A program made the position numbers and the translations under genes. Of a DNA stretch of 64,000 nt, positions 8,906 to 25,185 are shown in pieces (positions within the stretch are counted from its first letter, which is position 1; every line of letters starts with the position of its first letter). The notes beneath the pieces were generated by a model that had not been told where the DNA came from, did not search any database, and worked only from the letters and a program-made list of their open reading frames with translations. Origin of the DNA: Bacteroidaceae bacterium (GTDB lineage: Bacteria; Bacteroidota; Bacteroidia; Bacteroidales; Bacteroidaceae); NCBI GenBank assembly GCA_017651245.1, contig JAGCDQ010000007.1, positions 17,127 to 81,126 on the forward strand, read 5' to 3'.

Positions 8906-10498
8906 ATGAATAGGAGGTACAGCGACGCTACTACGAGCCAAAAGCGAAGGAAAAGTGAAATCACCGAAGTAAAGGAATCCATATCCACCATAATCAAATA
9001 CATAACAAAAAACGTTCAGAAGTCAATAAATTTCAGGGGTTACCAGAAGCCAAAACGAAAAATCATGTTCAATTATTTGTATTCTTCAGAGAAAGTCCAT
9101 ATCTTTGTCGACGATACCAGAACCTATAACTATATGAAATTCATTGGAGACTTCATAGATGTAATGATAAATCACGATGGTCTTTATGATAGCATCATAT
9201 ATAGTCCAGATGGAAAGAAAATAGCAGTAAAAGATGATCATTATCGCTATTTCTGGATTTATGATGCGGAAACGTTAGAGGTTTGTCAAGTCTTCAGGGG
9301 ACACATGCACAAGATCACCAGTATAGCCTTTAGCCCAGACGGAAAGAACATTGCCTCTGCATCATGGGACATGACTATCCGTATATGGGATGTGGAGACA
9401 GGAGATTGTATTCGGATTCAGACAGGACACAGAAGCTGTGTGTACTCCGTTGCTTATAGCCCCGACGGGAAGAAGATTGTCTCCACATCATGGGATCACA
9501 CTGTTCGAGTATGGGATCTGGAGACAGGCAAAAACTTATTGGTCATGAAAAGGTTTATACGTTCCACCTATTTTGCCCAATTCAGTCCAGACGGGAAATA
9601 CATTGTGGATTCATCATGTCTCGTCCGGGTTTGGGATGCAAGAACGGGCAAGAGGGTAAGAACCATGAGAGGACTATCATGGTCATTCGACCACACGACA
9701 TACAGTCCTGACGGGAAATATATCATGGCAGTCTCCGCAAAAAAAACGATATACCTATGGGATGCCCAAACAGGCAAAACTATTTGGCGTATAAAAAACG
9801 ACATGGAATATGGAGGATTTGCCACTTTCAGCCCTGACAGCAAGCTAATCGCCCAAGGATTTAAGCACACCATAAACATCTGGGATATAGAAACAAGAAA
9901 GAAAATTCATGTCATAGAAGACAATTCCATAGGTTTATCACCCACTTTCGCATTCACCCCGGATGGCAAGAAACTGATTTTAGAGGTATCGTGGGACACA
10001 AAACTTGTGACATTCTATACCTTTGCCGACGATGCCATAAAATTTGTATCCGCGAAAGTAAATGAACAATTGCACATTTCCGGCAAGAAGGTCCTCGTTC
10101 TGGATGATCACACCATAATGGGACATCTACAGCCATACTACAAACTCACCAATCGGGTTTCCGTAGATTTAAGAACTGCGCCATGCAAAGGCAATCCCAT
10201 TGAGTTGGTGAAAGAGTGGAAACCAGAGCTTATAGTGCTTGACCCAGACACCCGCATAGGCTCCCAAGATGGCTTTGAACTATTGCAACAACTGAAAGAA
10301 GACCCTGCCACGAACCACATCCCCATCCTCATTTGGACAGAACTTCCCAAAGATTTCTGCGAAGAGCATGAATCCTATCGCAACGGAGCCGCCGACTACA
10401 TAAGCAAGCCTATGGACCAGCATCTTCACACCACTCTCGCCGATATGCTCATAAAGCAATACAGAAGTAATCTCATGCAGAGCCTACATGAAAACTGA
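8906..10498 (+). CDS. WD40 propeller fused to a response-regulator receiver domain
   Basis: A 530-residue protein with no signal peptide. About seven WD40-type repeats occupy residues 85-390; each carries a SPDGK turn and most end in WD or a close variant. One seven-bladed propeller is the natural reading. The C-terminal 130 residues are a CheY-like receiver: acidic pair D400/D401 (VLDDH), phospho-acceptor D446 (VLDPD), T478 (IWTEL) and K501 (SKP). Spacings of 45, 32 and 23 match CheY closely, so phosphorylation is plausible. No histidine kinase is encoded in the window. The first 50 residues are basic and may be a tail, or translation may begin at the ATG near 9064. It opens the accessory island; the next gene has its own promoter motif. 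Confidence 0.85.
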   Translation: MNRRYSDATTSQKRRKSEITEVKESISTIIKYITKNVQKSINFRGYQKPKRKIMFNYLYSSEKVHIFVDDTRTYNYMKFIGDFIDVMINHDGLYDSIIYSPDGKKIAVKDDHYRYFWIYDAETLEVCQVFRGHMHKITSIAFSPDGKNIASASWDMTIRIWDVETGDCIRIQTGHRSCVYSVAYSPDGKKIVSTSWDHTVRVWDLETGKNLLVMKRFIRSTYFAQFSPDGKYIVDSSCLVRVWDARTGKRVRTMRGLSWSFDHTTYSPDGKYIMAVSAKKTIYLWDAQTGKTIWRIKNDMEYGGFATFSPDSKLIAQGFKHTINIWDIETRKKIHVIEDNSIGLSPTFAFTPDGKKLILEVSWDTKLVTFYTFADDAIKFVSAKVNEQLHISGKKVLVLDDHTIMGHLQPYYKLTNRVSVDLRTAPCKGNPIELVKEWKPELIVLDPDTRIGSQDGFELLQQLKEDPATNHIPILIWTELPKDFCEEHESYRNGAADYISKPMDQHLHTTLADMLIKQYRSNLMQSLHEN

Positions 10499-10644
10499 CA
10501 AGCATTTGGGATCTGGCTATCCAACAAGCATCCAATGCAGTCATCACACCCCCCAAAACCTCAAAACAAAAAATTAAAAGATATTTTTTCATCATCAGTA
10601 ACAAAATAATTCCCAAATGTTTTTTATAATATCAACAATTTATA

Positions 10645-10652
10645 TACATTTG
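10645..10652 (+). promoter_or_regulatory. -7 promoter element for the RyR-domain operon
   Basis: TACATTTG matches TAnnTTTG and lies 28 bases before the RyR gene start. The -33 region is T-rich (TGTTTTTTA around 10619-10628) without an exact TTTG. It suggests that the genes from 10680 onward can be transcribed separately from the WD40-receiver gene. Confidence 0.5.
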
Positions 10653-10679
10653 CGAGCCAAAACCTAACCTAAAACGAAT

Positions 10680-10970
10680 ATGAAACAAAAAAAGTATATA
10701 CCAAAACCTGTGGACACAAGTGATGTCCGATTGCCTGAAGAACTGGAAATGCTGGTCGAACAAATGTCGGAGAATGTGCATGACGTATGGGCAGAGACCC
10801 GAATTGCACAAGGGTGGTCGTATGGAAAAAAACGAAATGACGAAAAGAAATTGCATCCTTGTCTGGTTCCATACGATGAACTACCCGACTCTGAAAAAGA
10901 GTACGACCGTAACACCAGCATTGGCACATTGAAACTTATTTTGAAATTAGGCTTTAAGATTTCAAAATAA
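10680..10970 (+). CDS. Small RyR-domain protein
   Basis: A 96-residue protein that is almost wholly one RyR repeat domain, named after the ryanodine receptor. It shows the family order: DTSDVRLP, then LVEQMSENVHDVWAETRI, GWSYGKKRND, LHPCLVPYDELPDSEKEYDR and a closing LKLILKLGFKI helix. Stand-alone RyR proteins occur in bacteria, including Bacteroidota, usually near other conflict or nucleotide-signalling genes; their ligand is not established. It has no membrane segment and no signal peptide, so it should be cytosolic. The gene two downstream ends in a second, more divergent RyR-like domain, which suggests the two products share a ligand or interact. It begins the cluster RyR, coiled-coil membrane protein, RCK/RyR membrane protein. 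Confidence 0.9.
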   Translation: MKQKKYIPKPVDTSDVRLPEELEMLVEQMSENVHDVWAETRIAQGWSYGKKRNDEKKLHPCLVPYDELPDSEKEYDRNTSIGTLKLILKLGFKISK

Positions 10971-11026
10971 GTTACCGCTGAATCATCAAACCATATATTG
11001 TATCACATTTTTAAAATAATAGTACT

Positions 11027-11530
11027 ATGATTAGTTTGTTTATATTGCAGAATTGTCATGCTGCTGCTAAAACTGCAGAGATGGCTGGCAGACATATGCC
11101 TCACATGAGATTTTTCGGAACAAATTGGTGGGATGTCAAGATTGCGTTCTTTATTTGTGCTGCTATCACCATCATCGCAGTCGTTTTCATAATTGCTTAC
11201 GTCATTCACAACTGGAAAATGAGGAACTATTTATTACGAAAAGCTGATATGGATATGAAAACGATAGCACTACAGGCTGAAATTGAAATGAAAAAGGTTG
11301 AACAGCTGTCCAATATTGAGAAGGGAATAGAGGAGCTAAAAGCAAAGATTGAGAAGGAAAAGGAGGAGTTGAAAGCTAAGATAGAGAAAGAAAAATCAGA
11401 ACTGCCAAATGTGTATTTCAAAGAAATATGCAATGCGTCTAAAAACGAAGACGGGGTTGTCAACATAGAAACAGTGAAACAATTGTTTGAACTTTATCAG
11501 AAAAATAATTCAAGCAATTCCGAATCATAA
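11027..11530 (+). CDS. Single-pass membrane protein with coiled coil
   Basis: I do not recognise a family. The 167-residue product has one strong membrane segment at about residues 38-62 (a run of Ile, Ala, Val and Phe), then a charged coiled coil from about residue 68 to 128, and a short C-terminal helix. Inside the coiled coil the 11-residue unit EELKAKIEKEK occurs twice in tandem. The hydrophilic part is most simply cytoplasmic, since the preceding residues are less charged. It lies 56 bases after the small RyR gene and 27 bases before the large membrane RCK/RyR gene, and probably works as an assembly or tethering partner of one of them. That role is inferred from position only. Confidence 0.7.
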   Translation: MISLFILQNCHAAAKTAEMAGRHMPHMRFFGTNWWDVKIAFFICAAITIIAVVFIIAYVIHNWKMRNYLLRKADMDMKTIALQAEIEMKKVEQLSNIEKGIEELKAKIEKEKEELKAKIEKEKSELPNVYFKEICNASKNEDGVVNIETVKQLFELYQKNNSSNSES

Positions 11531-11557
11531 TATAAAAAGCCTCTACCATACAATAAT

Positions 11558-14167
11558 ATGAAGAACAAGATTGAATTCTGTTGGTTATCGATACTTGTAT
11601 GCTGTTGTTCGCTGACTGCATGCAGACCTGTCGTGTTTGTATATGAAATGGAAGAGGCTGACGCTGTCACACCTCAGACAGAAGTGTGGGAGTATATTAG
11701 CAATTGTTTGATAGACTGGACTTTTGCTATTTGGTTCGTCATTGTGTTGACCACAGCATTGATAACGTGGCATTATGGGTATAAGTGGCTGGAATGGCTA
11801 AGAAAACAACAAATGACTGGTAAGGTCGTAGCCATCCTCCTCACAATTGGTCTCGTGTGTGGTATTGGTCTCATATCACAAAGCCTTGATAAACAATATT
11901 ATGGAGGATGGTTCGCGATTCCCGTTGTTGTTGCCCTCGGATTCACATTGTTGCTACTAAAAACTATCAGGGAAAGATTTCAGAACAAGCTTGATGTTGA
12001 CAAAAAGCCTGATTCTTACAAACAGCAACAGAATCTAAAGTTACTTGCCTTCATTATGGCATGGGTATGGAGTTTTGGATGGGTGCTGCATTTTGTCGCG
12101 ATAGGCTTAGCCAAACAGCCTCATGTAGGTGCTGAATTGTTGTTCCGATCCGCCCTATGTTCTTTCCAACTATTCGGAATGAACATTGACGGGAACCTCA
12201 TTGATTCTATTACAAGCCACGACGTTCTAAAGGGTTTAATCATTTGTACAGGATTTGTCGCTGTTCTATGTATGGCAACCTTGATTGTGAGTCTTTTCAT
12301 TTCTCGCTTGATGGCTTCCTTACATGTTAGACATCTGAATATCGATGCACAACACAATCACCTGTACATTTTTTTCGGGATTGATGATGCCTCAAAACGT
12401 TTGGCAGAAGACATATGTAGTGAAAAAGGTGACCCCAATGCGGTAGTATTGTATGTTGTAAACAGTTTGGCAAGTCAGAACAACGATAAGGAAGATAATG
12501 CTGACGGCTGGGACAGCGTTAAAAGCATCTTCACCCATCGACGCAAGACATTTGTAGATGCGCATGAGGACGAAAGGCATGCTTTGGCAATTGCAAGTTG
12601 TGGAATCTGCAACCTCGATGCAGAGATAACTGATGTGTGGAGCAACATTGGACTCAGTTTTGTACAGGACTTGATTGGCACGAATGGTCAATTAGGCAAA
12701 ACATCAGACGCCAAGCTACACATCTTTTTCTTGTCCGAAGATCGCGATACGAATGTTAGGGCTGCCTCAAAGATGGCACAAGATATGACCATCAATCAAG
12801 CTACATACAATACTCGTATCTATTGTCATGCTCGTCGTAATGGTGTGAATAAAGTCATCGAAAGAAAGGGAACCCAAGTGGAGGTAAAGATATTAGACTC
12901 TTCACACTTGTCCCTTGAGCACCTAAAAAGGGATGTGAAGAACCACCCAATCAGTTTCGTTGATGTGAAGACATTGAACGAAGATAACCCAGGAACCGTA
13001 TCCGACACCTTTACGAGTTTGGTTGTTGGTTTTGGTGAAACAGGACAAGAAGCGGTACAGTTTTTGTATGAATTTGGAGCTTTCGTTAGCGACAAAGCAT
13101 CAAAAGACAATTCGTTCAGAAGTCCATTTGTATGCCACGTTGTTGACAATGAAATGGACAAATTAGAAGGAGAATTCATTGCTTCTGTTCCAGGGGTTCA
13201 ATGCAAAAAATCAATGTATGAGATTCCCTCTTCTTTCAAGAACAGCTCAAGTCCTATCAGATTCCACAAATGTGATTACCGTTCTCCAGATTTCTACGAG
13301 AAAGTACTTGCTCCAATCGTTAAGAATCTAAACTACGTTGTAGTCACATTGGGAGATGATGAAACCAGTATCACAGTAGCAGTAGAGATATTGAGATACG
13401 TCAGAAGAGTTAGAGAAGACCTGACGAAATTCCGAATCTACGTCCGTGCATACGAAAAAGGCACTTTCAAACATTTGGAAGATATTGCCAAGCATTATAA
13501 TGAATGGCTTCGATCCCCAAAGGATGAGACAGACAAGATTCTACTTTTTGGACAAAGCCAACTCATCTACACTTATAATTTGGTAGTAAATGACCAATAT
13601 GAGGAGGACGGAAAGAAATATTATGAGATGTATCGAAGCCTCAAAATTGACTCTGCCAACGACGAGGGACCTTGGGATGAGCGCCGCAAAAACACCCTGT
13701 CCCCCAAAAAGGGCGGAACATTATGGGAGAAAATGAGTAAGATTCGACGTAAAGAGAGCCAGGATCGCTCAAATGCTCTCCATGCTGACACAAAATGTCT
13801 GATTCTGGAGAAAGCCATCGGCAAGGACCATGTCAAAGACTTTGTACGAAGGGCACTTCAATCAAGGGAAGGCAAACAAGAAAACATCCACTACCCCAAC
13901 CTCTCTGAAGCAGAAAACAAACTGATGCTCAACCTCGCCATGTGCGAGCACCTTCGTTGGAATGCAGCCCACGAAATGCTTGGTTATGTAAACAATACTA
14001 CGGAGCATAAATGCGAAGAACGCTCGAAACTCCACAACTGCCTCAAACCTTGGCAAGAACTGGACAACGAATCCAACAATGCAGGTTACCCTGTCGATTT
14101 CAAAGTCTTTGACTTCGGTGTAGTAGAAACTAGTTTGAAGTTAAGATATGAAGAAGAGAAATCATAA
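11558..14167 (+). CDS. Multi-pass membrane protein with two RCK-like regions and a C-terminal RyR-like domain
   Basis: An 869-residue protein. The first 260 residues hold about six hydrophobic segments, the first of which ends in LTAC (Cys22) and may be a signal or lipobox-like segment. A non-hydrophobic loop near residues 190-225 lies between the last two segments, where a pore loop could sit. Residues 265-480 look like a first Rossmann-type region (LYIFFGIDDASKRLAEDI), and residues 487-700 a second with a clear dinucleotide loop GFGETG (491-496), followed by VVVTLGDDETSI, as in TrkA-N/RCK domains of K+ channels. Residues 790-865 resemble the RyR-like tail of many bacterial proteins (CEHLRW, then HNCLKPWQEL). 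I infer a ligand-gated channel or transporter. No exact family name can be given. Confidence 0.75.
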   Translation: MKNKIEFCWLSILVCCCSLTACRPVVFVYEMEEADAVTPQTEVWEYISNCLIDWTFAIWFVIVLTTALITWHYGYKWLEWLRKQQMTGKVVAILLTIGLVCGIGLISQSLDKQYYGGWFAIPVVVALGFTLLLLKTIRERFQNKLDVDKKPDSYKQQQNLKLLAFIMAWVWSFGWVLHFVAIGLAKQPHVGAELLFRSALCSFQLFGMNIDGNLIDSITSHDVLKGLIICTGFVAVLCMATLIVSLFISRLMASLHVRHLNIDAQHNHLYIFFGIDDASKRLAEDICSEKGDPNAVVLYVVNSLASQNNDKEDNADGWDSVKSIFTHRRKTFVDAHEDERHALAIASCGICNLDAEITDVWSNIGLSFVQDLIGTNGQLGKTSDAKLHIFFLSEDRDTNVRAASKMAQDMTINQATYNTRIYCHARRNGVNKVIERKGTQVEVKILDSSHLSLEHLKRDVKNHPISFVDVKTLNEDNPGTVSDTFTSLVVGFGETGQEAVQFLYEFGAFVSDKASKDNSFRSPFVCHVVDNEMDKLEGEFIASVPGVQCKKSMYEIPSSFKNSSSPIRFHKCDYRSPDFYEKVLAPIVKNLNYVVVTLGDDETSITVAVEILRYVRRVREDLTKFRIYVRAYEKGTFKHLEDIAKHYNEWLRSPKDETDKILLFGQSQLIYTYNLVVNDQYEEDGKKYYEMYRSLKIDSANDEGPWDERRKNTLSPKKGGTLWEKMSKIRRKESQDRSNALHADTKCLILEKAIGKDHVKDFVRRALQSREGKQENIHYPNLSEAENKLMLNLAMCEHLRWNAAHEMLGYVNNTTEHKCEERSKLHNCLKPWQELDNESNNAGYPVDFKVFDFGVVETSLKLRYEEEKS

Positions 14168-14342
14168 TTGTTTATCGACAAATGTATGATGACATGAGTT
14201 GTCAATATCTCTGTTTGGTGACGAGTTTAATCTCTTTTTTCTTCAAAGAGAATTAGTTGATGTGAAGATCATCGGTGATTGTTTTTTGTTGTTATTACTG
14301 TATTATTTTTTAAAGAATACATATTTTAACATAAATTGTGGT
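14168..14342 (+). other. AT-rich gap before the SIR2-like/TIR gene
   Basis: A 175-base AT-rich gap. An in-frame TTG at 14199 would extend the following protein by 48 residues including a hydrophobic run, but the TTG start and low-complexity composition make this unlikely. No exact TAnnTTTG promoter is seen. Confidence 0.5.
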
Positions 14343-15722
14343 ATGCGAAGAGAATTTGAAATAGAAGAATTTGCAAAGGATGTACTCCAAGATAAGTATG
14401 CGCTTATCGTTGGCAATGAAATTTTACTTGATACAAAAATCGAGCCTTCGGGTGATATTCATTCTTATTATCTAAAAATAGTAAATAAGTTTACAGAATC
14501 AAATTATACAAATTATCATGAAATTGCTCTTGGCAAACAAGAAGCGGATAATCCTGTTCGAGAATTGATTAATGCAGGAAAAATTGTCTATGATGATGCG
14601 GGTTTAGTGTCACCACAACTTTTGTCGTTATTGTCTACGAAATTGTTTACAACAATCTTGACGACAACAACAGACGGGCTGTTGGAAGCTGCCATGAAAA
14701 AAGTTTGGCCTAAGGAAGGAGAACTGCGTATCGTTAATATTTATGACAATGATTCTATGGAGAAGTTTCGTAATGCAATTAAAGCGTGTCGTAAAGATGA
14801 AAGATATTGTCAGCCTACGCTAATTTACGTATTTGGAAAAATGCACAAAATTAATTGGAGTTTACCATATGTGCGTACGGAGCCTGATGCAATATCTCTT
14901 ATTGAGAAATGGATCCGTATGGACGTTCAATCTGATGATGGAATGCTTGAATTCATAAAATCTAAACGTCTTCTTGCGTTAGGTTGCAAGTTTGACAACT
15001 GGTATTTCCGTTTTTTCTGGTATATTCTTACCGGAGAAATAGATAGAGGAAATTATAAAGGTTCTGGAGAAGTTGCATTTGTATTAGATGCTAAAGAAAA
15101 ATCGGAAATGCGATTACAACAATTCTTAGATCGAATGAGCATATGTCGTGAAGATAGTGCAACTTTATTAATTGAAAAGATCATTGATTTGTTCACCAAA
15201 GAAACGAACGAAGCTCCATTTCGGCATTTAATTAATAGGAAACGCCAATCGGGCGGTGTGTTTATATCTTACAATAGCAAAGATGCACTTCCTGCATGCC
15301 AATTGTTTATGCAGTTACAAGACAAATATAGTGTATGGCTTGACAATGTGCGTCTTTATGGTGGAGATAATTATGAAAATGAAATTGAAAAGGCAATTTG
15401 CAAATCAAAAATTGTTATCACATTATTATCACCAAATATCGCTACAACTTACCCAAATGTAAAGAAAGAGTTAGAAAAAGAGGATGGTGAAAAGAATATA
15501 CCTTTCTATATTAAAGAATGGCTTATGGCAAAACAAATGGGAGACAAGATTATTATACCTTTGGCCATCAATGGTTATGATTTAAGAGCTGACTACCACA
15601 AAATATATGAGTCGATTGTTGATGCGACTAATTCTGGCATAAATGCCGATGATAAAATCAACTTGATGGAAACCAATGGATTCAACAAATTACTTATTTC
15701 ATTAGATAAACATTTACAATAA
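14343..15722 (+). CDS. SIR2-like (degenerate) / TIR domain protein
   Basis: A 459-residue cytosolic protein. Residues 15-260 follow the order of bacterial SIR2-like domains: a first strand and loop ([11 protein letters not shown]), [13 protein letters not shown] where active members have TTNYD, IYVFGKM where they have KLHG, and [15 protein letters not shown] where they have GxSxxD. The glycine-rich loop, the catalytic Asn and the His are therefore all changed. Residues 304-440 are a TIR domain ([11 protein letters not shown]) with the NADase glutamate E345 in [10 protein letters not shown] in place. I read it as an NAD-cleaving TIR enzyme carrying an inactive SIR2-fold sensor or partner domain. 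It is followed one base later by the STAND-TIR gene, so the two are surely co-expressed. The ATG start was preferred to TTG 14199. Confidence 0.82.
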
Positions 15723-15723
15723 T

Positions 15724-18700
15724 ATGAATACTATGATAAAGAAGACTTTGCTCCTACAAAATCAAACCTTAGTTAATAAACATAACCCATGGGCTGGGCT
15801 CGCCTCATATGAGGATCCTGAGACTTCAGAGCGTCGTTTAGATTTTTGTGGTCGTGATGATGAAATCTACGATCTCACTAAGTTAATCAAGAGTAACACA
15901 TTTGTAACACTTTATGGGAAAAGTGGCATAGGAAAAACTTCTCTTCTCAATGCAGGCGTATTTCCTGAACTCCGAGAAGGGAAGTATACACCACTCAGCT
16001 TACGAATAGGATTTAGAGATGATTTTTCCAAAAAAAGTTTCCAGTCTTTAATTATTTCAGCAATTGAAAATAAAGTTACAGTTTGTGAGAATAATATTAC
16101 CTTCGTTGAGAACAAACAATATGACGAAAAATCTCTCGATTATTTATGGCAATATTTTGCTAGATACAATTTCTACAATAAGACTGATGAGCCAACAACT
16201 CCCGTAATAGTTCTTGATCAGTTTGAAGAAGCCCTTCGCGATTACAGAGAAGATGCAGAAATTCTCTTAAAACAAATAGATTTCATTAATGATAAAGATC
16301 ATGCTGTACATAAGAATTGCTATAGCTCAAAAGACTATCCACACGGAGAGAACTACCGCTTTGTAATATCAATTCGTGAGGATGATTTGTATCGCCTAGA
16401 GGATTGTATTGACAACTGCTATCTTTCTGCACTTAAACGAAATCGATATCGCCTACATAGTCTTTCTATAGAAGAGGCACGTGATGTAATTAAGATACCT
16501 GGTTGGAATTATATTGAAAAGAATGAAATTGAACAAATTGCAGATCTTATAATACAAGAATTAAAAGAGGATAATCAGGTGAGTTCTCTTATGCTGTCTT
16601 TAACCTGTAGCCAGTTATATTACGATCTAAAAGAGGGAGAGAAGATAAATATTAGTAGTGTAAACAAACAAAGTATTAATTCATCACTGGAACGGTTTTA
16701 TATTAATGCTATTAAACGTTTACAGCGTAAGCAAAGAGAAGAATTTGAAAAATATTTAGTTGAAAATGGGCATAGACGGCCAATAACCCTAACAGAATAC
16801 AAAAGGGTAGTACCCGATGGTCTTTATTTACTGGAAGATGATCAATGGAGAATTCTAACAAAGATTAAAATATCTTCTGTTAATGATGATGCACATACGT
16901 TTGTAGAACTTGTTCATGACAGGCTTGCTCAAGTGATTGATGATTGTAAAGAGAAATCTGATATCGAAGATGAGTCGGCAAACCTCAATGTAAGGTATGA
17001 GGATAAAGGCCAACTACTAGAACTTTCTGCTATTGTAGGGAAAAAAGATGTTTTTATAAGTTATAAACGAGAAATAGCTCCGTACGTCGCACGATTATTC
17101 GAGGAGTTGGAAAGTCATGATATTAGAGCATGGTTTGATTTGAATGAATTACATCAGTATGTGGGTAAAGAATACACGAAACGAATACATAAAGGAATTG
17201 ATAATTCAAAATTCTTTTTACTAATATACACAAAAGAAGTAGAGAATTCAACTTTTATTATCAACGAAGAACTCAGATATGCCGTAGAACAAAAGAAGAC
17301 GATTCTTTTCTATCCTAAGGACGAAATTGATATTAACAAATCTAAGTTGAAACAATTTGTTGGGCAAATACAATGGCTTGATACTATAGCAACGGCTGTA
17401 CATCAGTTGGATACACAAGAAACCATCGAAGATGAAAAACGTCTTGCTTCACTTTCTGCGCAAATTAACAAAAAGCATGAAATGGCCTCCTATGAGGATC
17501 AGAGTTTATTTTTAATTCGCATTGCACTTCAAAGATTGTTAGGAAAAATAACGGTTTTTGGTAATTACAAAAAACTTTGTGGCACAGGGATGAATGAATT
17601 TTATGATAGCAGTCAGTTTACTCTACGAGTTATTAACAAGGCGCTATTCATTCCTGTCCCCAAGAAATATCAGCAAAGGTTAGAAGAACTACAATTTTTC
17701 AGAAAAGACAAAACAAAAGAAATAGAAAGACATCTTAATATAATAAAACCAAACAAAGATGATATTCTACAGATTTTTTACGATTTCCTAAAAAAACATG
17801 ATGAAGAATACAATCTTGTATCACTTCATGGGCACATCGCTTTTTATCTAGATAATCCAATATACAGCTCTGTAGAACTTCCCTGTTTGGATAGTTTTGA
17901 TACAGACAAGGTTATTGAGGTGGTCGCTCAAATGGTGGCATGTTCGTTTATAAAAGATTTGGAATCAGGGAGAGTTATGTTTAATGGAACAGAACTTGGT
18001 GTATATGATATAAGAGATGGTCGAACTACAGATACAGAAGTACATTGTATTGATATGCAATTGTATTACTCTGATTATTTCACATTCAAATGTATGACAG
18101 AGATGTATCACATTCTTTGTTCAATAGATGGAACCCCATTTGTAATAAATAGTACTCGGGACATAAGACCTTTAGCGCCTTTTCTCTGTTCGTTAGGACT
18201 TGGAGGATTCTTGGCTGCATATGTTAATGGTATGCCCTCATTAATGTGGACAAAACGATCTGGCAACATTTCGTCTGGGGATATATGGCATTTTTCGTAT
18301 GATGAGACGGTAAGCCTGTTCCTTGATGGAGAAAAAGATATGTATGGAAATTTTGTAATTGATGAAAATCAAACAGTAAAAATAAACACAAATAATATTT
18401 TGTATCGTGCATTAAAAGAAGAGGTGGGAATTCCACGTTCCAAAATTAATGAAGGCAAACATGGACTTTTTGAGATAGGTCTCATTCAAAGTGAGCGGCT
18501 TGAAATTGAACTCATATCACAGGCTATTGTATATCTTCAAGAATCAACCAATCTTGAAGAACAAATTAAAGAAATGTATGGTAGTGCCAATGATGGATAC
18601 CTTGAGATTGCAAAAATAAAATTCGTTCCTTTAAGAAACCGGAATGAATTAATTGGCAAATTGTTAACACCCGAATCATTTGCAGTTTTCACTCGAATGC

Positions 18701-19188
18701 AGAACAGGTTAAAAGATCATGTTGGTAAAAAGGTCAAAATTGGTCCCAACACCCAGATAGAAGAAGGAAGTTTTGTTGACGATGGTGCAGAGATTGGTGA
18801 TTATTGTCGTATCCATAGGAATGTATATATTGGAAAAAATGTTATAATTGGAAGCAATGTCAAAATCCAAAACAACAATAGTATATATGAAGGCGTTACG
18901 CTTGAGGATGGAGTTTTCATTGGAACAAATGTATGCTTTATTAATGATAGATACCCAAGGTCTATCATGAGGGATGGAAGACCGATTATTCCTAATGATT
19001 GGAAATTGGAGGAAACACGTGTATGCTATGGTGCTTCTATTGGTGCAGGATCAGTAATCATGTGTGGCGTAACTATTGGTAAGTGGGCCATGGTAGCGGC
19101 AGGCTCAGTTGTCCTTGAAGATGTTCCTGATTACGCTATGGTAGCGGGGAATCCTGCAAAAATAATAAAAAAGAATATAACATATTGA
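15724..19188 (+). CDS. STAND NTPase - TIR - hexapeptide acetyltransferase fusion
   Basis: A 1154-residue protein. Residues 20-430 form a STAND-type P-loop NTPase: Walker [10 protein letters not shown] (65-73), then [12 protein letters not shown], Walker [10 protein letters not shown] and a helical winged segment. Residues 440-570 are a TIR domain ([11 protein letters not shown]) in which the usual catalytic Glu is Thr485 (GKEYTKRI). Residues 570-990 are of unknown fold; RALKEEVGI (895-903) resembles the second half of a Nudix box but the first half is missing. Residues 1000-1150 are a left-handed beta-helix acyltransferase close in pattern to nucleotide-sugar N-acetyltransferases (WbpD/FdtC type): [20 protein letters not shown], then [17 protein letters not shown] and AGNPAKII. 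I do not know this combination. STAND proteins normally sense an invader and oligomerise. Confidence 0.8.
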
Positions 19189-19211
19189 CAATCTAAATAA
19201 TAGGGAAAACT

Positions 19212-20486
19212 ATGAATGTATACGACATTTTTATATCTTATTCTAACAAGAATGTAAAAGAGATAGATAAGATTGTGGACATCATCCAAGGTTATAAGGT
19301 CAATTGCTGGTATCAGAAGAGAAACAGCAAGAACGACTTTATTAAAGAAATCAACTTGGGAATTAAGGAATCAAAGGCTTTTGTCGTATTCCTTTCTTCT
19401 GCAAGTATAAAATCCATAAGGGTGAAAAATGAAATAAACAGAGCCATAAAGAAGCATGAAAAGGATTCAAACTTTACCATTTTGCCAGTGATTATTGAGG
19501 ATTTAGATGAGGATGAAGATGATGAAATGGAGTTGTTAATTGGTAGTTTTACATGGATATACCAAAAAGACTATCCAGACCTTTACAGCTTGGTACTATC
19601 TATCTTTTCTCAATTAAACATTAAGTTGGCAGAAGATGAGAACTCTCGTAGTATTTATACTGGAGATGAAGATACTGAGATTAAAAGATTGAAAATACAA
19701 AATGAATATTTAAATAAGTTTGCAGGACCATATTTGGATGAAATCTTTGCTGATTATAAAAATCCTTTAGTTCTGGATGTCGGATGTGCAGATGGAAGTA
19801 ACACACATATACGATTTAATGGAAGAAAATATCGTGCTCTATTAGGGATTGATAAAAACCATCTCAAAATAAATACTGCCAATTCTTTATACAGGTCAGA
19901 TAAAAATACTTTCCAATACTGTGATGTCACTACTGATGATTTAGATAGGGTTTTATCCGATTATTTGCAAGAGAAAGAACAATATGGATTTGACATTATC
20001 CATTTATCTGCAGTGTTGTTACATGTCGAAGAGCCTGAGAAACTATTGAAGAAATTACATGGATATTTGTCAAAAGATGGAACAATCTTCATTCAAGATG
20101 AAGATGATGGAGTAAATCTTGTATACCCTCGTGACAAGAGGTTAGAAGATTGCTTCTATATATGGAAACACTCCAAAGAATCAGGTAACAGAATAATGGG
20201 GAGAACAATACCTTATATGTTGTCAAAAAACGGTTATTCACAAATAAAGTTGCTGTCATCACAAATAACTTCATTAGATTTCAACGGGGAAATGAAAGAA
20301 TGCTTATGGGATTTGTATTTCAACAGTGATTTATGGGTAGTAGACAATGCCTCCTATTTTGATGATATAAAAGCTTTTGAATTATTACAGACATATAAGG
20401 AGGGACATTCCAAACTCAGAGAAGAATATATGAATGGACGTTACTTTATCATGCTTGGCATTTTCTATATTTCTGCTCGAAAGTGA
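19212..20486 (+). CDS. TIR domain - class I methyltransferase fusion
   Basis: A 424-residue protein. Residues 1-135 are a TIR domain (VYDIFISYSNKN, then FVVFLSSASIKS) in which the position of the NADase glutamate is Ile44 (NDFIKEINLGI), so NAD cleavage is not expected. Residues 160-330 are a SAM-dependent methyltransferase with motif I VLDVGCADGS (187-196), an acidic end of strand two (GIDKNH), and FDIIHLSAVLLHVEEPEKLL. The last 90 residues are uncharacterised. The substrate cannot be predicted; the fold group includes small-molecule and protein methyltransferases. It follows the STAND-TIR gene by 23 bases and is AT-rich like it. A TIR in each of three consecutive genes points to homotypic TIR-TIR contacts among the products. 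Confidence 0.8.
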   Translation: MNVYDIFISYSNKNVKEIDKIVDIIQGYKVNCWYQKRNSKNDFIKEINLGIKESKAFVVFLSSASIKSIRVKNEINRAIKKHEKDSNFTILPVIIEDLDEDEDDEMELLIGSFTWIYQKDYPDLYSLVLSIFSQLNIKLAEDENSRSIYTGDEDTEIKRLKIQNEYLNKFAGPYLDEIFADYKNPLVLDVGCADGSNTHIRFNGRKYRALLGIDKNHLKINTANSLYRSDKNTFQYCDVTTDDLDRVLSDYLQEKEQYGFDIIHLSAVLLHVEEPEKLLKKLHGYLSKDGTIFIQDEDDGVNLVYPRDKRLEDCFYIWKHSKESGNRIMGRTIPYMLSKNGYSQIKLLSSQITSLDFNGEMKECLWDLYFNSDLWVVDNASYFDDIKAFELLQTYKEGHSKLREEYMNGRYFIMLGIFYISARK

Positions 20487-20543
20487 TACATTTAATAAAA
20501 CAAATATAGCATAATCATTTCCTATTCTCCAAATAATTTTGAC

Positions 20544-20582
20544 ACATCTTTGTTATTTTATGGTCGATGAGATGTTTTTTTT
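20544..20582 (+). terminator. Weak terminator after the TIR-methyltransferase gene
   Basis: ACATCT (20544-20549) pairs with AGATGT (20570-20575) across a 20-base AT-rich loop and is followed by eight T. The stem is short, so this is a tentative end of the island operon. Confidence 0.35.
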
Positions 20583-20613
20583 ATTTTTCCACCCGACTTT
20601 TTGAGATAAGTCG

Positions 20614-20621
20614 TATATTTG
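20614..20621 (+). promoter_or_regulatory. -7 promoter element for the HAD gene
   Basis: TATATTTG matches TAnnTTTG and sits 44 bases before the start codon at 20665. The upstream half is not clear. Confidence 0.45.
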
Positions 20622-20664
20622 TACGCGATATGTGAGCATAAATAACAATGAATGACAATATATA

Positions 20665-21267
20665 ATGATGCAGAATATCATTTTTGACTTTGGAAAAGTT
20701 TTGGTGGAGTTCGATCCACACAGGCTCTATGACCCCGTCTTTGGTGGCGACTGGGAGAAGGCGGAGTGGTTTCACCATAACATCACAACACCTGACTTCT
20801 ACGACAGGATTGATCGTGGCGATGACTTTGCTCAATGCATCAGAGACATGCAGGCTCTACACCCTGAGTACGCCAAGGAAATTGCTCTATACGACACGAA
20901 CTATCATGATATGGTGGGTGATGCGAAGCCTGGAATGATGGAATTGTTGACAGAGCTTAAGGAACAGGGATATGGTCTCTATGGACTCACCAACTGGTCT
21001 TACAAGGTATATGCCGTGATGGAGAGACTTCCCATTTTCCGCTTGTTGGATGGAAGTGTCATCTCTTCAGAAGAGCACCTCATCAAGCCTGATGTTCGTA
21101 TCTATCAACGTGTACTCGAGAAGTTTCACCTTCAACCCTCTGACTGCATCTTTGTGGATGACAAGCAGAAAAACGTGGATGCAGCCTAAGCTTGTGGTAT
21201 GCAGGGGTTGGTGTTCACCAACGCCGACCAACTTCGCAGCGACATGCAGCAGCTGGGCGTGCTCTAA
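20665..21267 (+). pseudogene. HAD-superfamily hydrolase interrupted by an in-frame TAA
   Basis: The frame encodes 174 residues of a HAD phosphatase of the haloacid dehalogenase/epoxide hydrolase type: motif I FDFGKVLVEFD (nucleophile Asp8), motif II region YGLTNWS, motif III Lys in EEHLIKPD and motif IV IFVDDKQKNV. A TAA at 21187-21189 then interrupts the frame. The same frame continues with ACGMQGLVFTNADQL and ends at 21267 with LGVL, which is the normal C-terminal strand and helix of the family. One base change (GAA to TAA) would explain it. All four catalytic motifs lie before the stop, so a shortened product might still fold. It may be a real strain mutation or a sequence error. Confidence 0.8.
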
Positions 21268-21329
21268 TAGCCACCACCCTTTTCTTTTCCCAACCATTAT
21301 CTCAACTTGCGAACTAAAACTATGAATCT

Positions 21330-22895
21330 ATGGAAATCAAGCACACTACCCTTCCCAAAGCAATCATGCTGATGCTGTTGTTATGCGTGAGTGTGACGAT
21401 GATGGCTGATACATATCCTGCCGTTTGTAAGGCAAGGACAAACCTGAATGTGAGAGTTGCCCCCAGTGTTCAATACTCAAGAAGGGGTATGTACCACAGA
21501 GGTGACCAGTTTATCGTGCATTCTGTTTCGTACAATGGTGGTATGAATTGGGGCGAGGTGACTTACAACGGTGAGATTGGATATGTGTGCATGAATTATG
21601 TGAATTATCTCTCCCCATACGAGGTGGAGCCTATGGTAGAACAACCACAAACAAGCGTATATAGTTCCCCTCAGACATTCTGGTCGAAAGCGTGGTCAAT
21701 CATTAAGGTTGTCCTCATCATCCTGGCGGTTATTATCGTACTGGCGTTTTGGAAGCAGATCCTTCAGGGAATCATTTATTTGTCGTTCTTTATGGGTGCA
21801 GGAGCTTTAATCACATACCTATTGTTTGGTAATGGAGGCATTGGTTCGATGATTGGGCTTATCATTGGTATCCTACTGGGCATACGCTATCTCTCAAACC
21901 TATATGGCATCGCTCCTTCATGGCCATTAAGACTATTTTACAACATTATTTCTTTTCCGTTCTATCTGTTGAACAAACTCCAATTCTTCATTGTGGAGCC
22001 TTGGCGTTACCTCTTCAAAAGTAACTGGTTGAGCGATGATGCCAAATCAGTTGTACGACCAATCTTGTACATACTGAAAATCGTGCTATACATTCTCAGC
22101 ACTCCGTTGCGGATTGTGAACGCCATCACCTATAATATTATCACGCATGTGTGTATCGGTTTATATGACCTTTGCTATGAGGTGTTGGCTCCCAGTTCGG
22201 ATGATGAAGGAGGAGAGAACTTTGGCTCATGGCTACTTTACTTCCCACTCCGTCTTGTGAAATACCCGATATGGCACGGAATCATTATCCTGGTGGAAGG
22301 AATAATTTGGACGATTGTCGACACGTTTATCCCTGCCATCACCATGTATCATGGAACAGACATGACAGCAGCACAAGCCATTACGTGCAGCACCATGCGA
22401 AACGAATATCTGAGGCGTTTCAAGCGATGGAGCGATGGTGCTTTCACTGCAAGTCAATGTTGCTGGGGAGGCAAAGGTGTGTATTTTGCCTCCATGCGAA
22501 GTGTCGCAAGAAGATATGCCATGGACGGTTACAGGCTCAGTGATGACAATCCCGTTATGATTGTGTGCAGAGTATCGTTAGGAGATGTCATCAACTACTC
22601 GTTAACCCCCGACTATGTGTATAACAACACTGGAGGAAATGGAAATTATGGTGTTTTGAACGGATATGCAAAAGATCATGGTTACAACACAGGGGAATGG
22701 TGGAATAAACGTGGCGGATATTGGGAATTCTGCATGTTTGACTGGCAGAGAAAATACAATGACCTGTGGCGCATCCGTCCTATCTACATTTACAGTTTCA
22801 AGACTGGCACCTTCCAACACGTGAAAGGCGGCATGCAGCACTGGCTCTTTGAGAAGGACATCCTCGATGACCTCAAAGAACGCCTACAAAAATAA
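21330..22895 (+). CDS. Membrane protein with SH3b domain and C-terminal PARP-like domain
   Basis: A 521-residue protein. A signal peptide (residues 1-26) leads into an SH3b domain (about 28-95: RTNLNVRVAPS, then GEIGYVCMNYVNYL). Residues 120-330 contain several hydrophobic segments. The last 190 residues show the His-Tyr-Glu order of PARP-type ADP-ribosyltransferases: H341 in YHGTDM, Y385 in GKGVYFASMRSVARRYA, and E466 in WEFCMFDW followed by RIRPIYIYSF, which resembles the PARP strand pair EYVVYN and RPLYL. I infer an NAD-using ADP-ribosyltransferase attached to the membrane. The substrate is unknown and the orientation of the catalytic part is not settled. It sits between the broken HAD gene and a strong bidirectional hairpin. 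Confidence 0.75.
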   Translation: MEIKHTTLPKAIMLMLLLCVSVTMMADTYPAVCKARTNLNVRVAPSVQYSRRGMYHRGDQFIVHSVSYNGGMNWGEVTYNGEIGYVCMNYVNYLSPYEVEPMVEQPQTSVYSSPQTFWSKAWSIIKVVLIILAVIIVLAFWKQILQGIIYLSFFMGAGALITYLLFGNGGIGSMIGLIIGILLGIRYLSNLYGIAPSWPLRLFYNIISFPFYLLNKLQFFIVEPWRYLFKSNWLSDDAKSVVRPILYILKIVLYILSTPLRIVNAITYNIITHVCIGLYDLCYEVLAPSSDDEGGENFGSWLLYFPLRLVKYPIWHGIIILVEGIIWTIVDTFIPAITMYHGTDMTAAQAITCSTMRNEYLRRFKRWSDGAFTASQCCWGGKGVYFASMRSVARRYAMDGYRLSDDNPVMIVCRVSLGDVINYSLTPDYVYNNTGGNGNYGVLNGYAKDHGYNTGEWWNKRGGYWEFCMFDWQRKYNDLWRIRPIYIYSFKTGTFQHVKGGMQHWLFEKDILDDLKERLQK

Positions 22896-23376: not shown

Positions 23377-25185
23377 TTATTTCACGAAACCGATTCGAGG
23401 TCTTGTCAGATTGGTGCGTTCCGTATTTTCCATCTTCCTGCGGATGTCCTCATAGATGGACAAAATGTCTTGACGCAGGGATGGATGGGTGTTCTTGACG
23501 GAGGTCTCCAGCAACTCTTCAGTGATTTCCTGATCGGTGAAGGCTGCCACCATCGCCGCATCGTTGACCACATAGGCAATGTCGCTGGCAATGAAGCCTT
23601 CGGTCATCTCGGAAAGTTTGTCGGCATCGATGTTGTTGGCATCGAAAGGCCTGTCTTTGAGGTGAATCATAAACATCTCCTTGCGCGCCTCTTTGTCGGG
23701 CAGCGGCACATAGATCTGCTTGTCGATACGTCCTGTACGAAGCACAGCGGGGTCAATCTTGTCGGGGCGGTTGGTGGTGGCGACCACAAAGATGCCTCGT
23801 TCTGAACAGTTGTTCAACTGGGAAAGGAACTCGTTGACTTCGCTGGCAGAGTACTGTGCAGCAGGATTGGAACGATCGGGCACCAAGGCATCGAACTCAT
23901 CGAAGCAGATGACGATAGGCGCCTGCTGTTCTGCCTGTTTGAAGAGCTGGGCGATTTTCTCCTGCGAACCATGAACAAAGGAGCTGGCAAGGTCGGAGGA
24001 TTTCACCAAGATGAAATTGAAGCCCGTCTCTTCAGCGAATTTCTCAGCCACAAAGGTCTTGCCACATCCTGGAGGACCATAAAGAAGCATTCCGTTGGGA
24101 GCGGTCAGACGATATTTTGCCATTTTCTCCTTGTTCTTGATGACAAAGATCACTCGCTGGGAGAGATAGGTCTTGAGTTCCTCCATACCAGCAATGTCTT
24201 GGAAACCATTTCCCGAACCTTTCTTGATCTCGAATCCGACCTTGTTGGGACTTTCGATTTGCTGGCTCTCCCCACCCTGAGAAGATGATGGTTGAGGAGT
24301 ATCGTCCTTCTTTGGTTCGGTTCGTGTGGGCACCTCGTCGGAATCGAGGTCGTGCAAGATGCTCTCCACATTCTTATAACGGTCGGCATAAGCCACAGCC
24401 AAACCTTTTGCCAAAATGGCTTTGGTGCGTTCTTCCACAATCAAGGCATCAAATTCGAGCGGTTCTGTCCTACGCTTGCACATCTGGAGAATTGCTCTCC
24501 TAGCCCGTTTCATGCCGTCGGAGAATTCCATCAACCAAGGTGATTGTCCTGTCAGCATCGTGAAGAGAACGGCTGTAGCAGAGAAAATATCACTTTGTTC
24601 ATCGTACACGCCAGCATAGGTTTCGTTGGCACAATACGCCACTTCCAAATCGCTGGTGTCGAAAGGCACTTTCCCTGAACATTTGGCTGAGAGATGCCCC
24701 AAGTCGATGATTTCAGGCGTACCATCTGTGGTGGCGGAAAGCATGATGTTGCGAGGCGTGATGTCGTTGTGGCAAAGTCCTTGTGCGTGGATGTGCTGCA
24801 AGCCTTCGATAATGTTGCGGAAGAGAACAAGGGCATCCTCTTCTCTCATTTTGCCCTCACGCTGTAACTTTTCAATGAGCAGCTCACCTGTGAAATAATT
24901 GGTCAGATAGTACTGAACGACACCCTCTTCTGTGTCCGCTTCTCCACTATCCACATAACTGACGATGTTCTTGTGCTTTAGGTTCTGGCTGTAGGTAATC
25001 TCCAGCACTTTTCCCGTCTCTGGGTCGAGCAGTTTCTCAGGCACTCTCTTGAGCACGAAGACTTTCATGAAATAAGGATTGTGGTCTTCGTCCTCCACAC
25101 GATATGTTTCTGTGTAGAGATTCTCCTTGATAAGACTCTGCACGACATACTTGCTGACTTTCTGTCCACTCTTAAATGTTGCCAT
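23377..25185 (-). CDS. Protein kinase-like domain fused to an AAA+ ATPase
   Basis: A 602-residue protein. Residues 1-275 are a Ser/Thr kinase-like domain: lysine K41 (YFMKVFVLK), catalytic loop HNDITPRN with D141, and DLG (161-163) in place of DFG; a helical C lobe follows. A Pro/Ser-rich linker (285-312) leads to an AAA+ module at residues 328-590 of the Cdc48/FtsH class: Walker A GPPGCGKT (370-377), Walker B ICFDE (426-430), and VVATTNRPDKIDPAVLRTGRID as second region of homology and arginine finger. I infer a remodelling ATPase controlled by or controlling phosphorylation. It heads a two-gene reverse operon with the YbjN-like gene. Minus-strand TATATTTG at 25212-25205 is a fitting -7 box. 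Confidence 0.85.
   Translation of the reverse strand: MATFKSGQKVSKYVVQSLIKENLYTETYRVEDEDHNPYFMKVFVLKRVPEKLLDPETGKVLEITYSQNLKHKNIVSYVDSGEADTEEGVVQYYLTNYFTGELLIEKLQREGKMREEDALVLFRNIIEGLQHIHAQGLCHNDITPRNIMLSATTDGTPEIIDLGHLSAKCSGKVPFDTSDLEVAYCANETYAGVYDEQSDIFSATAVLFTMLTGQSPWLMEFSDGMKRARRAILQMCKRRTEPLEFDALIVEERTKAILAKGLAVAYADRYKNVESILHDLDSDEVPTRTEPKKDDTPQPSSSQGGESQQIESPNKVGFEIKKGSGNGFQDIAGMEELKTYLSQRVIFVIKNKEKMAKYRLTAPNGMLLYGPPGCGKTFVAEKFAEETGFNFILVKSSDLASSFVHGSQEKIAQLFKQAEQQAPIVICFDEFDALVPDRSNPAAQYSASEVNEFLSQLNNCSERGIFVVATTNRPDKIDPAVLRTGRIDKQIYVPLPDKEARKEMFMIHLKDRPFDANNIDADKLSEMTEGFIASDIAYVVNDAAMVAAFTDQEITEELLETSVKNTHPSLRQDILSIYEDIRRKMENTERTNLTRPRIGFVK

Follow-up and report, generated by a model that had tools for sequence, protein, structure and literature searches.

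Do the seven adjacent genes at positions 8906-20486 of this stretch of DNA belong to a single TIR-based system, and what would such a system sense and act upon? The stretch, hereafter the window, is 64,000 nt long (Bacteroidaceae bacterium, assembly GCA_017651245.1, contig JAGCDQ010000007.1), and the island is filled by seven plus-strand open reading frames (ORFs), as a first-pass annotation had claimed and as the ORF listing bears out. It is made up of two modules of unlike composition together with accessory genes. Judged from its predicted domains, module A comprises a 96-aa RyR protein, a transmembrane (TM)/coiled-coil protein and a membrane protein with RCK-like regions and a RyR domain (RCK-RyR; genes 2-4), and module B comprises a SIR2-like-TIR protein and an nSTAND1 ATPase (genes 5-6). 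We hold it to be about an even proposition that the island forms a modular system for TIR signalling, in which an NAD-derived nucleotide would be sensed by RyR domains and would drive a membrane effector. The observed basis of this proposal is the gene content, the matches and conservation of key residues, and the repeated linkage of TIR genes with RyR and RCK-RyR genes. The genes and the right border are as follows.

8906-10498, plus strand: gene 1, WD40-repeat protein with a C-terminal receiver domain (WD40, Pfam E 1.1e-33)
10680-10970, plus strand: gene 2, RyR-domain protein of 96 aa (Pfam RyR E 9.9e-38)
11027-11530, plus strand: gene 3, coiled-coil protein with one TM segment (residues 39-57 by hydropathy)
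11558-14167, plus strand: gene 4, membrane protein and predicted effector, with about five TM segments, two Rossmann/RCK-like regions and a C-terminal RyR domain
14343-15722, plus strand: gene 5, SIR2-like (degenerate) plus TIR protein of 459 aa (TIR_2 E 1.2e-12)
15724-19188, plus strand: gene 6, nSTAND1 ATPase (residues 1-430; E 1.3e-21), TIR (443-554; TIR_2 E 1.5e-13), middle region (about 560-990, some 430 aa) and hexapeptide acetyltransferase (1004-1148; hexapeptide transferase E 6.1e-19)
19212-20486, plus strand: gene 7, TIR plus S-adenosylmethionine-dependent methyltransferase (TIR_2 E 4.4e-17; Methyltransf_23 E 8.5e-11)
20487-20501, no strand: right border; a sister-species contig of 98.3% identity resumes at 20501

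The domain content assigned at first pass agreed with Pfam, apart from the start of gene 5, which has been moved, a SIR2 match that is weak, and an RCK assignment in gene 4 that is plausible only.

Putative ligand residues of the RyR domains

A May 2026 preprint reports that the phage protein RyDEP, which forms a dimer, cleaves two isomers of cyclic ADP-ribose (cADPR), 2'cADPR and 3'cADPR, that H75, W78, H100 and D117 contact the ligand, and that H75 and D117 are the catalytic pair (PMC13232231). RyDEP is gp78 of DyoEdafos, annotated as a ryR domain protein, which matched gene 2 at 33% identity in tblastn (E 9e-5) and is 28% identical to it in alignment A6. Residues H34, W37, H59 and D76 of gene 2 align there with the four RyDEP residues in the same order, and the four positions are invariant over the whole alignment, which consists of RyDEP, five RyR proteins and the C-terminal parts of two RCK-RyR proteins, the window's among them. 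Membership of gene 2 in the RyR family (PF02026) is indicated by the profile match at 9.9e-38 together with the presence of all four residues (H, W, H, D), and the protein also matched solved RyR structures. Among 26 RyR domains from the loci fetched for comparison of neighbourhoods, chosen by a local profile E below 1e-20, the first H, the W and the D were invariant, and the second H was kept in 21. Gene 2 is predicted, from these residues, to bind an NAD-derived nucleotide. By analogy, the small RyR protein could serve as a co-sensor subunit or the second half of a sensor dimer, or it could be a RyDEP-like sponge or terminator of the signal. Its tblastn search against phages gave matches in 282 records, and the phage-collection records that match most closely (MT837259 and MT836850) are two unverified faecal scaffolds with bacterial-looking genes; no relative was confirmed in the viral contigs searched for RyR, the gene 6 middle region and SIR2-TIR.

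The predicted effector encoded by gene 4 has a lipobox-like N-terminus, followed by about five further TM stretches and then two Rossmann-like regions. As a whole it had no Pfam match, and its C-terminus alone matched Pfam RyR at E 0.017, below the cut-off; compared with solved RyR structures, a profile of the gene 4 family (12 sequences) matched a tandem construct at E 2.2e-12 and a single domain at 1.4e-5. This family profile and four invariant residues place the C-terminus in the RyR family (PF02026), and by these measures it is a diverged RyR domain. In alignment A2, H798, W801, H826 and D852 (numbering of the window's protein) are invariant in all 12 RCK-RyR proteins, the others being 20-54% identical to that of the window. 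A second subfamily, homologous to the window's RCK-RyR family (hhalign probability 99.4, E 1.5e-21), keeps each of the four residues in at least seven of eight proteins (alignment A5), with L116 departing; the profile of this subfamily was built from six proteins, which it then matched.

The RCK identity and channel nature of gene 4 are plausible from its sequence relatives. When 14 family members were scanned with Pfam, three gave sub-threshold matches to Slo-like_RCK (L111, 4.6e-4; L116, 5.8e-4; L117, 9.8e-4) and two gave weaker ones (L126, 0.067; L100, 0.11), L051 matched TrkA_N at 0.11, and the remaining members gave no RCK-type match; L126 also matched a Kch model at 0.0052. Searches of the PDB with both subfamily profiles (E up to 10) returned RyR and chance-level rows only, with no RCK chain among them, and a single comparison with TrkA gave a probability of 0.3%, though the register looks right. 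Close relatives of gene 4, at 51-54% identity, were obtained from the genome collection (L068, L069, L070 and L071). In 36 further genomes of the genus, BLAST with the window's RCK-RyR protein gave no match; the second subfamily is present in the genus (L100, L099). Over the phylum, the RCK-RyR profile matched 23 of 395 genomes at E up to 0.001, outside the window's own genome by the C-terminal part only, and none was found in the plasmids searched. In one locus (L048, 14047-19105) a single RyR gene is accompanied by neighbouring genes for two different membrane proteins of the RCK-RyR family, which are perhaps heteromeric.

TIR genes and their linkage with RyR and RCK-RyR genes

RyR was present in 25 of 295 sampled genomes of the order, mostly with or within an RCK-RyR-family protein, indicating that the pieces of the island are spread beyond one lineage. 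There were 27 RyR loci above the cut-off, 26 of which were examined, one (G143, with RyR at a contig end and its neighbourhood not fetched) being left out; a match below the cut-off (G058:C180) and a second match in G178 (the RCK-RyR protein itself) were dropped, and three matches in G182 were counted as one locus. An RCK-RyR-family protein lay beside RyR, lay one gene from it or contained it in 21 of the 26 loci, as a full gene nearby in 13, as a shorter homologue in two (L114, L118) and as a protein with RyR inside it in six; no RCK-RyR-family gene was found near RyR in the other five (L105, L106, L108, L119 and L124).

TIR genes lie near these loci far more often than uniform placement predicts. 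In the 24 RyR-bearing genomes of the order, the window's own genome being left out, 14 of 33 TIR_2 matches (in 12 genomes) were within 15 kb of a RyR locus, compared with 0.40 expected and at most 5 in 100,000 simulations. All three TIR_2 matches of the window's own genome are in the island. On contigs with RCK-RyR, 12 of 12 TIR matches in G730 (L069, L070) and nine of nine in G731 (L071) lay within about 22 kb; because these genomes and G729 were found through RCK-RyR, the RyR sample is the fairer test of linkage. Six loci, five of them from the RyR sample, have a TIR gene spaced -4 to 35 bp from a RyR or RCK-RyR gene on the same strand: TIR and RyR genes overlap by 4 bp in L100, L112 and L113, and TIR and RCK-RyR genes are separated by 9 bp in L057, 31 bp in L125 and 35 bp in L126.

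Both modules were found together in five loci, namely the window, L069, L071 with L110, L100 and L112. The order in L112 is SIR2-TIR, nSTAND, FGE-sulfatase-like, RCK-RyR, TIR and RyR; that in L100, which is from the same genus, is TIR, SIR2-TIR, nSTAND, RCK-RyR type, TIR and RyR, the last at 75% identity. RyR also lies upstream of SIR2-TIR/nSTAND by 284 bp in L106 and by 482 bp in L105. Weaker cases are G281 (L136), with an RCK-RyR-family gene about 8 kb from SIR2-TIR and no RyR, and L099, with an RCK-RyR-family gene of host-like G+C about 7 kb from SIR2-TIR.

The first-pass annotation had read the seven genes as one candidate system, in which TIR proteins are joined to a RyR/membrane responder, and had proposed looking for co-occurrence of the seven families. 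The joining of TIR to the responder proved to be a recurrent arrangement, as the 14 of 33 linked TIR matches and the five loci with both modules demonstrate. The wider claim stands in part only, since the modules also occur apart and in other orders, and a single obligate seven-gene operon is rejected on the same grounds. Co-occurrence likewise extended to the two modules and not to every family: in a tblastn search (E up to 0.01) of 56 other loci fetched for their neighbourhoods, with the window added as a matching control, no match was found for gene 3, for the receiver of gene 1 or for the methyltransferase domain of gene 7. By blastp, gene 3 is 41% identical over 29 aa to a protein of L070 in the same position before RCK-RyR. 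The receiver of gene 1 had NCBIfam response-regulator matches, all below their cut-offs, and its presumed Asp, Thr and Lys residues look intact by eye. The WD40-receiver protein is probably an accessory, and it and the TIR-methyltransferase look like optional add-ons.

For gene 5, the ATG at 14343 is a more likely start than the TTG at 14199, because the homologue in L059 has Met at that position and the starts of other homologues lie close by. Its SIR2-like part matched at E 0.14 only. In the columns of alignment A4 that we take to be the usual sirtuin Asn and His positions, Asn is absent from nine of ten sequences and His from all ten, the window having TTTTD and YVFGK there; as these positions are lost, the SIR2-like domain is probably not an NADase, and SIR2 as the active NADase is disfavoured. 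The TIR domains have an aligned Glu, which we take to be catalytic, in all 12 seed sequences, the window's three included. Two of the three align pairwise at this Glu with Cat1 or ROQ1; the TIR of gene 7 aligns with Cat1.

Residues 432-1154 of gene 6 are 71% identical to a stand-alone protein directly upstream of RCK-RyR in L071, and the closest nSTAND protein (51%; L059) has WD40 repeats instead of the TIR-middle-acetyltransferase unit, so that domain shuffling is visible in this family. A Nudix reading of the middle region was rejected: a degenerate box can be picked out by eye, but there was no Pfam Nudix match and no PDB match. Searching with the whole gene 6 protein matched 291 of 295 genomes through the transferase repeats, and this search was used only to add L059 and L060. 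A profile of the SIR2-like part matched 25 of the 295 order genomes; after 17 of 32 rows weaker than 1e-30 were dropped, 15 strong loci (E below 1e-30) remained, four of which (G000, G064, G091 and G274) are the profile's own rows. Thirteen of the 15 have an nSTAND gene next to SIR2-TIR, the exceptions (G113 and G217) being from one genus. SIR2-TIR was found in six of 45 genomes of the window's genus, its own included, and nSTAND is adjacent in all six loci from the five other genomes.

Other genes recur in these neighbourhoods. Arrays of many TIR fusions stand next to one RCK-RyR protein in L070 (473-9312) and in L071 with L110 (1603-9843), the fusion partners including FGE-sulfatase, RHS-like, WD40, PP2C and acetyltransferase domains. 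A sigma-factor-like ORF directly precedes a protein with C-terminal RyR in L049 (1467-3108), L050 (15291-16959), L069 (12592-14074) and L119 (7791-9336); Sigma70_r4_2 matched at E 0.0052 in L049, the assignment is not supported in L069 and L119, and the L119 protein has a C39-peptidase-like middle part (1.9e-5). Control of a transcription or protease switch may be another role of RyR. Genes for PrsW intramembrane proteases and M48 peptidases are repeatedly found next to RyR or RCK-RyR (L069, 14077-14781; L070, 12556-13263; L119, 9344-10237; L052, 7008-7886), and proteins starting with GVxGHR occur beside RCK-RyR or RyR genes in L120, L123, L124 and L126. The one in L124, which is beside RyR and TIR genes, matched SLATT_1 at 6.2e-6; there are hints of SLOG-type nucleotide enzymes in place of, or with, TIR.

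Proposed mechanism and rival explanations

As the simplest account, we propose that the nSTAND1 ATPase, its SIR2-like-TIR partner and the extra TIR fusions would sense an invader and turn on TIR activity. The TIR domains would then turn NAD+ into an ADP-ribose-type nucleotide, for example 2'cADPR or 3'cADPR, as their fold and conserved Glu suggest, and this nucleotide would be bound by the RyR domains, whose residue set is the one that binds in phage RyDEP. Acting through the RyR domain that it carries and together with the small RyR protein, the membrane RCK-RyR protein would change state, probably as a gated ion channel, and growth stop or death of the infected cell would follow. In this scheme we infer TIR activity, the identity of the TIR product with the RyR ligand, the gating of RCK-RyR and an antiviral purpose; a purpose directed against invaders is the most likely one. 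More tentatively, and with odds that we consider to be against it, the island may be a bacterial cADPR-to-RyR pathway, in which an invader-triggered cADPR isomer made by TIR opens an RCK-type channel through a heteromeric RyR sensor. Such a pathway would be a prokaryotic counterpart of the disputed axis of cADPR and ryanodine receptors in animals, and phage RyDEP would be derived from, or would mimic, its sensor.

A host RyR protein wired to TIR enzymes and a membrane protein would, if the proposal is true, add a new type of effector to TIR immunity. It would further offer a small, genetically tractable system in which to ask whether RyR domains are cyclic ADP-ribose receptors, a role long debated for the animal calcium channels. 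Binding of cADPR isomers by RyR has already been reported for phage proteins, according to the preprint (PMC13232231).

A number of findings weigh against the proposed signalling system, and several of them speak for rival explanations. It is unlikely, though a serious contender, that two unrelated systems merely adjoin, a SIR2-like-TIR/nSTAND NADase suicide module and a RyR/RCK-RyR membrane module without a common messenger, brought into proximity by the tendency of variable islands to gather such genes. Third-position G+C is 0.40-0.48 in genes 1-4 and 0.27-0.32 in genes 5-7, which suggests that the island came from at least two sources; with halves that differ in composition, long joint inheritance of both is not demonstrated. 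A 175-bp gap also precedes gene 5. For ten of the 15 strong SIR2-TIR loci there is no RyR match up to 15 kb away, contig ends cutting the view in seven of the ten; the five loci with RyR are those of G000, G064, G273, G244 and G278, and among the five that are fully visible RyR is present in two. Only L100 has RyR among the six SIR2-TIR loci (five genomes) of the genus outside the window's own genome. Conversely, SIR2-TIR was not found near RyR in 21 of 26 RyR loci. RyR and RCK-RyR stand alone in G729 (L068), where the single TIR match is not near the pair (0 of 1) and the contig ends 391 bp downstream. The linkage of TIR to RyR is itself inflated against the uniform null, because defence-type genes cluster in islands anyway. 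What argues against two separate systems is that in six loci a TIR gene overlaps or directly adjoins a RyR or RCK-RyR gene, that the five loci with both modules show them in different arrangements, and that RyR lies just upstream of SIR2-TIR in L105 and L106.

The other rivals concern the part played by RyR. We regard as improbable the explanation that it senses the general level of adenine nucleotides or ADP-ribose and not a TIR messenger, the membrane protein being an ion channel or transporter under stress regulation. Nucleotides or ions are the usual ligands of RCK-like regions, and 12 of the 24 RyR-bearing genomes have no TIR within 15 kb of RyR, five of them being without any TIR_2 match. 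The preprint further describes human RyR3 as binding adenine ligands with the corresponding residues (PMC13232231). Such a general sensor is difficult to reconcile with the strong TIR linkage and with the 4-bp overlaps of TIR and RyR in L100, L112 and L113. Marginally less probable still is that the small RyR protein is an off-switch, a hydrolase or sponge guarding the host from a leaky TIR signal, and that killing comes about by NAD+ depletion through TIR alone. The catalytic pair of RyDEP (H75/D117) is present in the window's RyR protein, and RyDEP hydrolyses cADPR isomers while its homologues sequester them, as the preprint relates (PMC13232231). It also states that six of eight phage homologues tested bind and only RyDEP cleaves (PMC13232231), so that function is unreadable from the residues alone, a point against the proposed signalling system. 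What argues against the off-switch is that the membrane protein has a RyR domain of its own, in which the four residues recur in all 12 sequences, and that an off-switch alone would not need the RCK-RyR-family protein found with RyR, or with RyR inside it, in 21 of 26 loci. For the proposed TIR-to-RyR signalling, a further point on the negative side is that the RCK assignment of the predicted effector is weak.

Known systems and genomic surroundings

The first-pass statement that this is not the gene set of Thoeris, CBASS or Avs held for the Thoeris effector, the CD-NTase of CBASS and the single STAND protein of Avs alike. Thoeris consists of a TIR enzyme, ThsB, and a nucleotide-gated effector, ThsA. 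The island resembles it in linking TIR enzymes, the window's three having the Glu intact, to a putative nucleotide-binding effector, and in having several TIR genes per locus (as do L070 and L071). It differs in that its predicted sensor is RyR on a membrane protein, that it has a STAND ATPase partner and that its SIR2-like part is fused to TIR and is without the usual active-site residues. No SLOG or macro domain of a ThsA-type effector was seen among the Pfam and NCBIfam matches listed for the seven genes; a macro-TIR protein occurs in the relative L069. By analogy, the island would work like Thoeris, yet it fails the effector definition of that system. No CD-NTase was among the Pfam, PADLOC and NCBIfam matches listed for the seven genes. 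Avs is a single STAND protein with an effector at its N-terminus and a sensor at its C-terminus, whereas here nSTAND1 is N-terminal, TIR and transferase follow, and there is a separate SIR2-like-TIR partner.

RyDEP shares with the island's proteins the Pfam family and all four ligand/catalytic residues; RyDEP is described as a phage counter-defence (anti-Thoeris) enzyme, while the island's RyR is encoded by the host beside TIR and occurs, in addition, as part of a membrane protein. Animal ryanodine receptors (RyR R12 domains) likewise have a RyR domain on a membrane protein, here possibly a channel, but the membrane part is another one, the island's protein being RCK-like, bacterial and far smaller. 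RCK-gated K+ channels (Slo, Kch, TrkA) share the order of TM segments and then two Rossmann-like regions, although the gene 4 family matches no solved RCK chain. SLOG/SLATT and other nucleotide-centred conflict systems have a parallel in the SLATT_1 protein beside RyR and TIR in L124; no SLOG was seen in the island itself. Swarozyc (DUF4062), SpbK and other TIR-type NADase defences share the TIR-type NADase fold, as far as the opening parts of their abstracts indicate, and these openings name no RyR membrane partner such as the island has.

PADLOC gave partial matches only for the island's genes (TIR parts, WD40 and methyltransferase parts, and a weak STAND), and NCBIfam had no defence model near its cut-off for them; the relatives behaved likewise in both. 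In the NCBIfam release of June 2026, no model of a RyR effector matched those RyR and RCK-RyR proteins that were scanned. Among the literature matches listed, titles and abstract openings describe no bacterial TIR-RyR membrane system; the RyR passages of PMC7016017, PMC8195603 and PMC13288928 have no bearing on one, and PMC9503650 nowhere mentions RyR.

The island stands out in composition, with 33-43% G+C in its 2-kb segments against 43-52% in the rest of the 64 kb, the exception being the mixed 2-kb segment at 20001-22000 (41%). A sister species (G026, L134) is 98.3% identical over 5.5 kb from base 20501, 14 bp past gene 7, and to the left of the resumed identity its contig has two other genes, the island being missing beside the same right flank. 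Because the identity starts at 20501 with other genes before it, the right side of the island marks a variable insertion; neither its left border nor the left flank of the sister species turned up in the searches made. Of the two genes that the sister species has at this chromosomal position (L134, 527-3042), one has pentapeptide repeats and the other no family match; the site may be a hotspot. A gap of 181 bp separates gene 1 from the RyR gene. A Bacteroidota-type promoter pattern had nine matches in the window, compared with 2.2 expected; one was at 9076-9107, within gene 1, and none stood immediately before genes 2-7.

Just to the right of the island, at 21330-22895, is a gene for an SH3 and PARP-like membrane protein, whose counterpart in the sister species is 98% identical and which has matches in four of 45 genomes of the genus, the window's own included. 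Farther along, at 23377-25185 on the minus strand, a protein kinase is fused to an AAA ATPase (Pkinase 4.1e-27, AAA 2.6e-36).

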